A DNA stretch of 64,000 nucleotides from Picochlorum sp. 'celeri'. Lineage: Eukaryota; Chlorophyta; Trebouxiophyceae. Position 1 is the first letter of the stretch; every line of letters starts with the position of its first letter. The DNA is taken from assembly GCA_010909725.1 (NCBI GenBank), contig JAACMV010000022.1, positions 930,001 through 994,000 of the forward strand, given 5' to 3'. The notes beneath the pieces were generated by a model. It did not search any database. It was not told the origin of the DNA and was given only the letters and a program-made list of their open reading frames with translations. Shown here one piece after another: positions 12,467 to 50,890 of the stretch. The position numbers and the translations under genes were made by a program.

Positions 12467-15280
12467 TCAATCTTGTTGAACAGGATCCTGTATTCGTTCT
12501 TCTGCCTGATTCATGGGGTTCTGGGCATTATTCTCGTCTCCTCTCCCTTGCTCTGCGCCATGCTGTGCCGTGCGCCTTCTCCATACAATTAGCCCTAGTA
12601 TTGCCACAAGCCACATAAGTAAGGACGAATCCACAGCGTCGTCAACAAAATCAAATAGTTTCCCCAAGGATACGAGCGATTTCACCGGTGCATGGAGAGC
12701 ATATGCTGTCATGCCAAAGATTGTTGCTTTCTGAGCTCCAGTAGAGTCTGATTCGAACATGGGGTTGATTAGCCCGATCAGAGCATTGGGAAGTTTTGGC
12801 CTCGTCATATCCCAGAATTGGTGCACTCGTAGCCATAGAACTGCAAGGAAATTGGGAAGGTATGTGCCTGGACCAATGAGCATTGCTTGATCATAGTACC
12901 TCTTTGCAATATGCATATCTCGGGGCATGCCGAGTCCATATTGGTGCATATACCCGAGGTTGAACAATGCTCTTGCATTGTTACGCTTTGAGGCAGCAGT
13001 ATAGAAGTGTCCAGCTCTCTTCAAATCGACATCCACCCCTCTACCATACCAATATGCATCTCCCAAAGGAATCAGTGCACCCGAGTTTCCTTGTCCGGCA
13101 GAGAGCTTCAACATGTATGCAGCAAGGGTATCAGATTTTGGTCCATTATAGCCATACGCTCGCCGAAGGAGGCATGCAGCATTACTTTGTGCAAGTTCCA
13201 CACCAATGCTTGCACCCTTCAAGTAGTTGTAAAGCGACCAACTATAATCACCTTTCTCATAATCGCCTGCCGCTTCTGATAAGCTTGCCCAGCCACGCTC
13301 GGCTACTTTTTTCAGGAGCTTGACTGCATCTTCACATGCATCGGTTGAGCTCGCACTTGTGCCTGTCAGATGCAAAACAGCCAAGTTGTATGATGCTAGC
13401 AAGTTGCCTCCTTTGGATGCGGTCTGGAAATATTGCGATGCCAGAGAGACATCTCGCGTCACACCCCAACCATGGAGGCGTACTAATCCTGCAAAAATAA
13501 TAAAATATGAGCAATGAAAAATGTGAAAAGATTACGCACACAGTGTGCTTCCTCTCTTCGCCGCCGACAGGATTTGAACCTGCGCGTGTCTCCACAACGG
13601 ATTGTTCAGGTCGCCTGAACCGCTCTCGAAAGCCGCGTTCGAGCGACTATTCAAATCCGGCCCCTTAACCACTCGGGCACAGCGGCTTGGAGTGCAAAAC
13701 CGAATTTCCAGGGCTACAGCTCTAGATGAGTCACGCCACGGAGCCTTACAAAACGACGTACCTGCGTAAAAATAAGCATCCGATTTACCAATCCAGTCTT
13801 GTTTGATATCTATTGATCTCTTGAAGTACTTGGCGGCCAATATGTGGTCCACTTGGGACCCTTGACCTGTGAGGTGCATCAAGCCTAGACCGAAAAGACC
13901 ACTTGGATGTCCTGCAATACACAATCGTCAGTGTGAAGCGTCCTGATACAATTATATTCATGCGCACGGACCTTTTTCTGCTGCTTTCGTGAACCAAGAT
14001 CGCGCAGTCGCATTGTTCTGAGCAACAGCTATACCATTTGCGTATGCATGACCAACATGTGCCATGGCATCAGCATCACCCATCTCAGCAGCTTGCAACA
14101 AATAATCCAATGCAGATATAAGATTTTGTTCTTCTCCATGGGTAAGAAGATGTGCAACTGCCCGCGCAGCTTCAGCATGGCCATAATCTGCAAACCATTG
14201 ATAGTGCAGGAATTCTTGCTCTGCTGAGGGCGATGGCCTTGATTGCCGTTTCTTGTCCCCAAGCCTCATGTCGTTTATGGTAGGAAGTCCTCCATCCACT
14301 GTCGCTGCGGACACGACGGAGGATGCCACGGGTTCATAATACAAGAGTGCTGCTGGACAGCTCTTTTCAACTCCGAGACCCTGCACCACCCACGCAAGAT
14401 TTCTGTGAGAATCACTCCACACACAAGAAACACGTAACCAGCATCTCATGTAGAAAATACATACATGATAGTACCGAAAACCAAGGGCCATCTTTGCTAA
14501 TGGATCATCTCCTTTGGCAGCAAAAGAAAAGTGTAGCATTGCAAGATCCAAGTCAGGTTCTTTCAAAACAAATAGCCAGTCATCATCATTTGGAGCAACT
14601 GGCTCTACACCGACAGAATATAATACACCCAAGTCAGCCTGAAATTCGGCAATTCCAACCGCAGCCAACTCCTTCACCAGTCGGTGAGCTATTGCTGGAT
14701 TCAAGGGCACTCCAGAACCTACACAGTCACACCTCGTTTTAAATCCATCTCTGTGATACCACACGAGTACCAAACATGTCGTACCATCTCTAAATGCAAA
14801 AATAAGCTCTCGGACAGCGTCGATGTGCTGAATAGTGCCATTGCGCCATTCAACCTGGACATCATCTGCAGTGTAATAGAGAGATCCGTTCATTTCATAC
14901 CCAGATGCACTGGAATGATTCATGGACAGATGCACGATCCCAGCGGCGGCATATAGCTGATGAACAGACAACCTCAGTTCCTCTTTACTGGCGTGGTCCT
15001 TCAATCGGGTAGCCATTGCTTTTTTGAAGAGTTCCTCTGCTCTACTGCTGCTGCTGTCATTTCTGTGTTCTTCTTCTTTCAGAGAGGATGTCTCGTTTTT
15101 CTCATGAACTGTCGCATTATTCTCCCCAACACTGATATTAGAAACATTAATATTGCCCACCAGGACACCGTCAGATGGCGTGTCAAGGTCTCCTTTTGTG
15201 TTTTGGCAGCACGACAGCACCAAGACTAAAACGATCACTACAGACGCCCATTTCCCTCTAATGAAGCAGTGCTGTCTCAT
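12467..15280 (-). CDS. SEL1L/HRD3-like ERAD scaffold protein
   Basis: Four exons: 15280-14465, 14380-13972, 13911-13762 and 13488-12467, giving 798 residues; every join is in frame, for example RYYH to GLGVEK, a classic HRD3/SEL1L junction. The ATG at 15280 starts a signal peptide (VVIVLVLVLSCC). Then come N-glycosylation-rich acidic sequence, Sel1-type TPR repeats of ~36 residues (LGxxYxxGxGVxxx pattern), and near the C-terminus a membrane span (LLMWLVAILGLIVW) followed by a basic, hydrophilic cytosolic tail. In other eukaryotes SEL1L/HRD3 delivers misfolded glycoproteins to the HRD1 ligase. The third intron (273 nt, against 84 and 60 nt for the others) contains a tRNA gene. Confidence 0.87.
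13559..13686 (-). tRNA. tRNA-Ser(UGA) with a 47-nt intron
   Basis: On the minus strand: acceptor GCCGCTG pairs with CGGCGGC (one G-T), D-arm CCC/GGG, anticodon loop TTTGAAT giving UGA, a variable arm with a GTG-GAGA-CAC stem, and T-arm GCAGG/TTCAAAT/CCTGT. The intron lies one base 3' of the anticodon, about 13649-13603, the canonical eukaryotic site. The outermost anticodon-stem pair is a C-T mismatch. A TTTT run follows about 30 nt downstream, fitting Pol III termination. The gene lies inside, and in the same orientation as, an intron of the SEL1L-like gene. Confidence 0.9.
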
Positions 15281-48676: not shown

Positions 48677-49054
48677 TTTGTATGAAATTGAGCAAAGATT
48701 CAATCTTTTTTCTCAGTTTTTATTTATTTACTTATTGTGAATTATCTGTTGTGAATGATGATGATGATGAATACTATTGGTGAAGAATCTTCTGATGCCG
48801 CGTCAGCATCATCATCATGATTCAAATGTGTGGCCAGGATTGATTGCAGATTCTTCATAGGGCATTGGATGAATGGCATTATTATTTAAACGTCACGTCT
48901 TCTTAATTCTCATATTTTATTAGGAATACGCTACATATATGAACACAATGTACATATAAGAATAGCTGGCTTGGGGGTGACCCAAGTTTCTCCGCGAGTG
49001 ATTTTGGCCTTTCTATTCCTCAGATATTCGGGGGTTTCATATATCCTGTATCAT

Positions 49055-49181
49055 CCATATTCGAAAGAGCGCAGGTTCGAACCCTGTCACGATCAATACA
49101 TAGTACCGGAGTTTCGAAATTGACAGAAACTTCCCATCAAAGCGATCGTGTGGCCGAGCGGTTAAGGCGTATGGGTAAGGT
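49055..49181 (+). tRNA. Circularly permuted tRNA-Leu(AAG) gene
   Basis: The 3' half precedes the 5' half. 3' half 49055-49095: CCATA (anticodon stem), variable arm TTCGAAAGAGC, T-arm GCAGG/TTCGAAC/CCTGT, acceptor CACGATC and discriminator A. After a 48-nt spacer comes the 5' half, 49144-49181: acceptor GATCGTG, TG, D-stem GCC...GGC, G, anticodon stem TATGG, loop GTAAGGT (anticodon AAG at 49177-49179). The acceptor pairs 7/7 and the anticodon stem 5/5 only if the halves are joined in permuted order; variable-arm and loop sequences match plant tRNA-Leu(AAG). A TTTTT terminator lies at 49216-49220. Exact end positions of the halves at the anticodon loop are uncertain. Confidence 0.92.
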
Positions 49182-49238
49182 CCTTAATTAGAACATTAAA
49201 TATGTTCCGATCACCTTTTTGCAACATCTCCGTTTGAG

Positions 49239-49286
49239 GCAGGTGCACCACTTGGTGCTGGAAGCTGCACCAAGTGGTGCACCTGC
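49239..49286. repeat. 20-bp perfect inverted repeat with 8-nt loop
   Basis: Arms GCAGGTGCACCACTTGGTGC (49239-49258) and its exact complement (49267-49286), loop TGGAAGCT. It begins 18 nt after the tRNA T-run. Transcribed, it would form a very stable hairpin. Role unknown. Confidence 0.9.
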
Positions 49287-50890
49287 TTCCAGCTTTTTAC
49301 ATTCCTTTTACAACACGATACAGACATGCCTTCTATTTGTATTTAGAACATTAAAACGTTCTAAGATTCATTTTTTTCAACAAGGAACTAGTGGAAATTT
49401 CTAGAAAGGTTGTCACAATTGGCTTTACAGGAAAAGCCAAACATGTGGGCATGAACGAAACGATTCGCTGTCAATCTGACGGAAGAGAAATTTATAAATC
49501 TAGTGCGATTGGAATGTGATGAGATGAGTCCACCAGGAGCACAATTGTCAGCTTCAACAAATATACGAAAGTCTTCCTCTTTGTCCCATGCTGACAGAAG
49601 AAACGACATGGATCTTGCGTTTCGGAATGCACATTTCAATATTCTGGATCTATTGTCGGACTTTTATGGCTGATGTTTCAAATAAACACTAGATCACGGT
49701 GATTATTAATCACAATATTGTGGGTGTATCATCATATCTCACAAGAAGTTTGGATGATGACAAATTGTCATTGACAATCTTCTCACACATTTGTTCCTCT
49801 TGTCCCGTCAATTCCTCGATGCTTTGCGACTCATTCTGGAATTAGATCTAATATGTTATCACTAAAATGCAAACTTAAAGCTTCATGGGATCTTTCTGGC
49901 TCTGGTTCTGTGACGAGAGGGAAACGACGCCTCTGCGGTCAACAAAGAGTGTCAGGAAGCCCCACGCGCGTATAATGTAATGTTGTCCTTTGAGCATCTT
50001 TAATTCAAGATGTTAGGTATCGCATAGGATTGCCACGGTCTTTTCGTGGCCAAGAGGCTGCGGCGACCAGGTCACTGGCATGGTTAGTCATGTGGCAATG
50101 TTTCATATAGACCACATCGATACACTTGAAGAAATTCTTTACTCTGGGAACATGCATAACATGGACTCATGGAAAGGCTTTCGCGTCTCTCAGTGGTGGC
50201 TGGTTACGGTGTGCACAACGATAACGACCCTGTGAGATGAAAGTTGGTGCCGTTGGCATCGTATACAGAGAAGAATTGAACATGTATTTTATTATCGATA
50301 AAGACGTTCTGCACAGTCATGGGCCATTAAGGGGCTTCCAGATGTGAAGAAACGATGAAAGACGCTCTTCTTCTTCTCATCGCTCCGGATCTACTCTCCT
50401 AGATCCAGATGATGATGACGGTACGTTTCTGTATCCTGTCGTGTTCCTCTTTCTTCTGGCTATCATTTCTAGTACGATTCTGTGCAGATGGGCCATTTGC
50501 AGCACTAGCAGCAATGCCTTGCATTGCTACACCAGGAGTATGGTTGGTTTTGGTATCCACAAGCTCTTCCCGCCTTGCTGGCTACTTTGAAAAGCCTTTC
50601 GTCAGATCATCCTCATCATCATTACTGGACAACAGGTATTTTTCCTACTCGAGAGACATCTGAGAGGTACTCATGAATGGTGTTATCATGTGTCATCTGA
50701 ATGAGAGGAAGACGTGTCCTTTTTTTGAAAACCTATAATAAACAGAAAGAGAGCCCGAACCGAACCAGTGGATGCAATATATATAATTCGAGTATATAGA
50801 TAATCAGAGGTATTTTGGGTGAAGGAAGGGGTGGAAGATGGATGTCCCATCCATGATTGTTCATGTGCTGCATGAAAGGGTGATCAAGGA

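Follow-up and report, generated by a model that had tools for sequence, protein, structure and literature searches.

Circularly permuted tRNA genes are already known as a kind, and a catalogue reaching to 2014 counts 34 of them in seven species, 11 of which belong to Cyanidioschyzon merolae (PMC3978253). The type II genes of Ostreococcus and Micromonas described there are nuclear, green algal, broken between tRNA positions 37 and 38 (junction 37/38), provided with a relaxed bulge-helix-bulge (BHB), lacking an encoded CCA and inclusive of class II tRNAs (Leu, Ser). They share these properties with the gene described here, a tRNA-Leu(AAG) of Picochlorum sp. 'celeri', which adds a member to the known kind. 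It lies in a stretch of 64,000 nt (the window; C22:930001-994000 of an assembly of 27,412,692 bases in 30 contigs), to which all positions without a contig name refer. In contrast to the at least 17 permuted loci found here in Picochlorum, a trebouxiophyte, the Ostreococcus and Micromonas genomes have 3 to 6 permuted genes each in Table 1 of the catalogue, where Leu(AAG) does not appear (PMC3978253). C. merolae resembles Picochlorum in its many permuted genes (11, Leu(CAG) included) and apparently in its AT-rich upstream element and downstream T run, but its junctions lie at several positions rather than at 37/38 throughout, its spacers reach 74 nt, the maximum given in PMC3978253, rather than 128 nt, and it is described there as having no homologues of the TFIIIC subunits TFC1 and TFC3, whereas Picochlorum has a B-block TFIIIC match. 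Auxenochlorella UTEX 250-A, like Picochlorum, belongs to the Trebouxiophyceae and has a streamlined diploid genome with permuted tRNA genes, which came to light through an incomplete tRNAscan-SE set (PMC12636532; preprint PMC12633428). A preliminary description of our locus had held permuted tRNAs to be confined to a few lineages and had read the gene as a clue to a red alga, a prasinophyte or a nucleomorph. This clue was misleading, the host being outside the lineages named; the report from Auxenochlorella dates from 2025. We found no published report of permuted tRNA genes in Picochlorum in a search that left most subscription literature outside, and an earlier mention is possible.

On the + strand, the 3' half of tRNA-Leu(AAG) is followed by a spacer and then by the 5' half (49054-49180), the reverse of the order in a linear intron-bearing gene. 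The preliminary description had order and identity right and both ends one base too far downstream (49055-49181). When the break at 37/38 is closed, the two halves adopt a cloverleaf fold and ARAGORN calls them tRNA-Leu(aag), whereas in genomic order they give no call. A failure of the rejoined sequence to score as a tRNA, which would have counted against the preliminary description, was therefore not observed. The acceptor stem pairs at 7/7 positions and the anticodon stem at 5/5, and the unconstrained fold of the precursor is a permuted cloverleaf, in which the acceptor stem encloses the spacer, the D stem has 3 bp, and both the T arm and the anticodon stem are formed. CCA is not encoded, the spacer starting with ATA right after the discriminator base. 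The earlier claims of perfect pairing in permuted order, of a B box ahead of the A box, of a 48-nt spacer without CCA and of a T run after the 5' half, likely an RNA polymerase III (Pol III) terminator, all stand. It is highly probable that the stretch 49054-49180 represents a functional tRNA-Leu(AAG) gene, nuclear and circularly permuted (type II, junction 37/38), whose transcript would be cut, circularised and trimmed as set out below.

The gene escapes standard searches. ARAGORN reported no tRNA in the whole window, and Rfam reported a single match, to a linear intron-bearing tRNA at 13559-13686 (-), missing the permuted Leu; the anticodon of this linear gene, read by eye, is that of Ser(TGA). 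We built a covariance model for permuted class I tRNAs (R1), trained on the permuted Thr(TGT) and on 12 linear tRNAs of this genome whose letters had been rearranged into permuted order, with no Leu among them. R1 scored the window Leu(AAG) at 36.0 bits (E 9e-9 over 80,487 bases, R1 E-values being rough), and the runner-up in the window at 9.6 bits. The pattern CACGATC N40-60 GATCGTG occurs at four sites in the genome, namely Leu(AAG), its allele and a permuted Leu(CAG) present in two copies.

Could the swapped order be an artefact of assembly? Leaders match the swapped junction, the permuted order is found on both haplotype contigs and at unrelated loci, and linear tRNAs are intact in the same assembly, which leaves this explanation with a negligible probability. 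That the locus is a relic, either a disused permuted pseudogene or a rearranged tRNA fragment, is a very unlikely reading. It draws on a G at position 32, an unusual base for an anticodon loop. Against it, every stem pair is intact, the BHB is kept across the permuted set, and the allele on C2 (L001) has no change in 79 tRNA bases as opposed to four substitutions in the 48-nt spacer. Moreover, no linear Leu(AAG) turned up in a BLAST search with the rejoined tRNA; a linear copy, together with a lack of junction-spanning reads, was what the preliminary description had named as grounds for abandoning its proposal. The six matches were all halves within four permuted Leu loci. This search detects close copies only, because it reported neither the linear Leu(CAA) gene (L033), which has an intron and the variable-arm sequence TTCGAAAGAGCG in common with Leu(AAG), nor the 5' halves of Leu(CAG).

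The same architecture recurs in a structural set of 18 permuted sequences from this genome, made up of one per anticodon (16) and two Ala genes on C30, with a second, nearly identical Arg(TCG) locus excluded. All 18 have junction 37/38, 7/7 acceptor pairs and 5/5 anticodon-stem pairs, and all give the expected tRNA in ARAGORN once rejoined. In genomic order, ARAGORN is blank for 17 of them and miscalls Gly(GCC) as tRNA-Cys. The BHB that had been suggested as a further check is present, with 58 of 72 helix pairs formed over the 18 sequences in the best of 32 registers (shuffle mean 30.5; 0 of 20,000 shuffles reach 58). Spacers range from 11 to 128 nt, the longest, in Arg(TCG), being strongly structured (z -4.3). 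The five Ala sequences retain G3:U70, presumably the Ala identity pair.

Since the halves are swapped in the gene, the RNA presumably has its two ends ligated together and is then cut anew before use. We infer that Pol III would produce one transcript comprising leader, 3' half, spacer, 5' half and trailer, the leader and trailer sides of which would form a relaxed BHB on the anticodon stem, in a register visible in the sequence. The tRNA-splicing endonuclease would cut at this BHB and the new ends 37 and 38 would be ligated into a circle. RNase P and tRNase Z may then excise the 48-nt spacer, followed by addition of CCA and use in translation. This is the pathway that PMC3978253 gives for red and green algae. 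In a different order of events, RNase P and tRNase Z would remove the spacer first, and the base-paired halves would then be joined by the splicing machinery with no circle. The sequence itself is neutral as to the order, and the end-cutting enzymes could act first because, in the predicted precursor fold, the spacer is closed off by the acceptor stem. However, circular intermediates of such tRNAs have been detected in both red and green algae (PMC3978253), and we regard this order as improbable, preferring the route through a circle.

Features of the permuted tRNA-Leu(AAG) gene, in window positions, and the permuted tRNA genes found elsewhere in the assembly
Feature	Location	Strand	Basis or remark
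Weak match AGATATTC	49022..49029	+	2 mismatches to GGAAATTC, upstream element of this genome's tRNA genes
Leader bases -6 to -3, one BHB helix strand	49048..49051	+	3/4 pairs with 49175-49178
3' half, tRNA positions 38-73	49054..49095	+	sequence; rejoined tRNA
Position 38	T49054	+	
Anticodon-stem 3' strand CCATA	49055-49059	+	
Variable arm	49060-49070	+	
T arm	49071-49087	+	
B box GGTTCGAACCC, 5' of A box	49074..49084	+	sequence
Acceptor 3' strand	49088-49094	+	
Discriminator	A49095	+	
Intervening spacer, 48 nt	49096-49143	+	sequence
Predicted spacer hairpin arms	49108-49115 / 49126-49133	+	fold, z -1.98
5' half, tRNA positions 1-37	49144-49180	+	sequence; rejoined tRNA
Acceptor 5' strand	49144-49150	+	
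D arm (A box)	49153-49168	+	
Anticodon-stem 5' strand	49170-49174	+	
Anticodon AAG	49177-49179	+	
T5 run, likely Pol III terminator	49216..49220	+	sequence
Permuted Leu: AAG, CAG, TAA	C1-C15		
Permuted Thr: TGT, CGT, AGT	C1-C15		
Permuted Ala: TGC, CGC, AGC	C1-C15		
Permuted Gly: GCC	C1-C15		
Permuted Arg: TCG (two loci), TCT, CCT	C1-C15		
Permuted Cys: GCA; Ser: GCT	C1-C15		
Permuted Met: CAT	C1-C15		elongator by eye
Additional permuted Ala: AGC, TGC	C30		L128, L129

Permuted and linear genes appear to have an upstream element in common. Within 60 nt upstream, GGAAATTC was found with at most two mismatches in 14/18 permuted sequences (500 shuffles: mean 5.4, maximum 11) and in 13 of 22 linear genes (mean 5.4, maximum 11); with at most one mismatch the counts were 8/18 (0.6, maximum 4) and 6/22 (0.7, maximum 5). 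These figures should be read with the choice of GGAAATTC in mind, which was made by eye from part of the tested sequences, and two linear upstream stretches were shorter than 40 nt. All 18 permuted sequences have a run of four or more T within 50 nt downstream, a count given with no shuffle control. Two other sequences present near several tRNA genes, AGAACATTAAA and TTAAGGAACTT, were not enriched in the window (two matches each; expected 1.5 and 1.0). As for the machinery, the B-block TFIIIC match lies within a 1597-aa frame on C7/C24, and the genome encodes two splicing-endonuclease catalytic domains, found at loci of two kinds. The second domain is found at seven places (C10, C16, C9, C12, C21, C25 and C26), with identical coordinates on C9, C12 and C26, and the C10 and C12 copies are identical over 1367 bp; these places reflect either gene amplification or redundant contigs.

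Two further sequences adjoin linear tRNA genes. A shared sequence ending in ggcgtgcagaaaacacggctc and then an A run lies ~60-120 bp upstream of tRNA-Asn, Asp and Phe genes (L009, L010, L021, L025, L028; the A run is shorter or altered in L028) and also upstream of the permuted Ala(TGC) on C4 (L070), as if it were a retroelement favouring tRNA upstream regions. In addition, GGTCCCGGGTTCAAA, which resembles tRNA positions 46-59, lies directly against the 5' end of the tRNA in linear Asn and Phe genes (L009, L025, L028).

The P. celeri assembly has been reported as phased and diploid, with 27.43 Mb in two sets of 15 scaffolds, 46% G+C and 0.8% SNP heterozygosity (PMC7225527). Contig pairs carry many of the tRNA loci; the 30 contigs are not all chromosomes, because at least one, C12, is only 25 kb long. 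The window has 41-50% G+C in 2-kb bins and, where 8253 bases align with its C2 counterpart, shows 84 mismatches. A BASS-family protein encoded in it matches a protein of Picochlorum sp. BPE23 at 98% identity over 93%. Around Leu(AAG), the C2 allele has two substitutions in the 200 bp upstream, and two plus eight gap positions in the 200 bp downstream. Just 3' of the gene lies an inverted repeat (49236-49289) whose arms are 23 nt long (96%). Its 8-nt centre is reverse-complemented in the C2 allele, as if the palindrome had flipped.

Comparison among permuted genes points to duplication. The second permuted Leu, Leu(CAG), on C11 and C19, has a 3' half identical to that of Leu(AAG) and a 37-nt 5' half that differs at three bases (in the D loop and at positions 32 and 34), or 3/79 overall. 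Its spacer can be aligned to that of Leu(AAG) with five substitutions and 10 gap positions. The duplication and the anticodon change therefore postdate the permutation, given the identical 3' half and the related spacer. The spacer hairpin is predicted alike in both Leu(AAG) alleles and Leu(CAG), and changes in its 3' arm across the three spacers, read by eye, leave G-U pairs. Among the Ala genes, a run GACGAT...ATCGTCCG is common to three spacers, those of Ala(AGC) and of the C30 Ala(TGC), which again points to duplication after permutation; the C4 Ala(TGC) spacer lacks this run. We considered whether Ala(AGC) on C4 and C30 are alleles in opposite orientation and rejected this, treating them as separate loci because their 1.5-kb surroundings align over only ~286 bp at 77%.

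Our census of permuted genes is partial, was counted on one contig set (C1-C15), and gives a lower bound of at least 17 loci with 16 anticodons. The two Arg(TCG) copies, L095 and L098 (C8, 59 kb + and 537 kb -), align over 593 bp at 99.3%. Permuted Thr(TGT) first appeared as a sub-threshold Rfam match (19 bits); its sequence was taken from C20, and the C5 counterpart is known from a match in the similarity search for linear relatives. The T-loop pattern GGTTCRANYCC has 187 places in the genome (reversed control 157), with 94 on C1-C15 among the matches listed: 30 as loci, 52 retrieved as 51 loci and 12 inside known tRNA loci. Eleven of the 94 are permuted genes, nine of them new. By count, neither AGTTCRANYCT (166 places, reversed control 259) nor CGTTCRANYCG (105, control 251) was in excess. 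Of their C1-C15 places, 24/86 and 16/53, respectively, were selected for GTTCGA T loops and examined, with TGTTCGANYCA places not included, and these 40 places yielded five further permuted genes. R1 gave 37-64 bits to seven of the 51 loci (next, a linear tRNA, 18.4) and, in a separate scan of 49 loci, 36-52.5 bits to three (next 27.9, at a linear gene). Over the permuted genes its scores range from 36 to 72 bits, the top value belonging by construction to Thr(TGT), a training member. Viral contigs had no match to two exact patterns.

Linear genes were found for 10 anticodons without an intron (ARAGORN) and 12 with one (anticodons read by eye), including an intron-bearing Pro(CGG) missed by Rfam and L032, called Ile(aat) by ARAGORN and read by eye as an intron-bearing Trp(CCA). 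A genome search with RF00005 placed 34 of 36 matches above the cut-off; it is no census, because 63 of 866 candidates were scored and linear genes found later at L101 and L140 were missed. In the partial census we saw no linear Ala, Thr or Cys gene, and all Ala and Thr genes seen are permuted. Expected anticodons absent from it are Gln TTG, Gly CCC, His GTG, Leu TAG, Ser AGA, Tyr GTA, Val AAC, Val CAC and Sec TCA. A similarity search for linear relatives of permuted Thr(TGT), Ala(TGC), Gly(GCC), Arg(TCT), Ser(GCT) and Leu(TAA) found none: its 26 matches from 14 candidates were all permuted loci or their counterparts on the other haplotype (those on C27, C16 and at C30:205 kb being unfetched).

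Our combined findings suggest that permuted tRNA genes are probably more numerous in Picochlorum than in any genome of the 2014 catalogue, where C. merolae has 11, and that the Picochlorum set includes every Ala and Thr gene found. Such genes would then be no frozen relic, since they duplicate and switch anticodon (Leu AAG/CAG, with Ala AGC/TGC sharing spacer sequence) and carry spacers of up to 128 structured nucleotides, and ordinary translation would need BHB cutting and end joining. Picochlorum tRNA annotations from standard tools probably miss much of the set, because ARAGORN is blank for 17 of 18 permuted sequences and gives a false tRNA for the other; tRNAs in the Picochlorum SENEW3 genome paper were called with tRNAscan-SE. 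Permuted tRNA genes are rare, and the presence of at least 17 in one fast-growing marine alga, spacer-sharing paralogues with different anticodons among them, would offer a testbed for spread by duplication versus repeated new origin, and for the dependence of Ala, Thr and Leu decoding on the splicing endonuclease.
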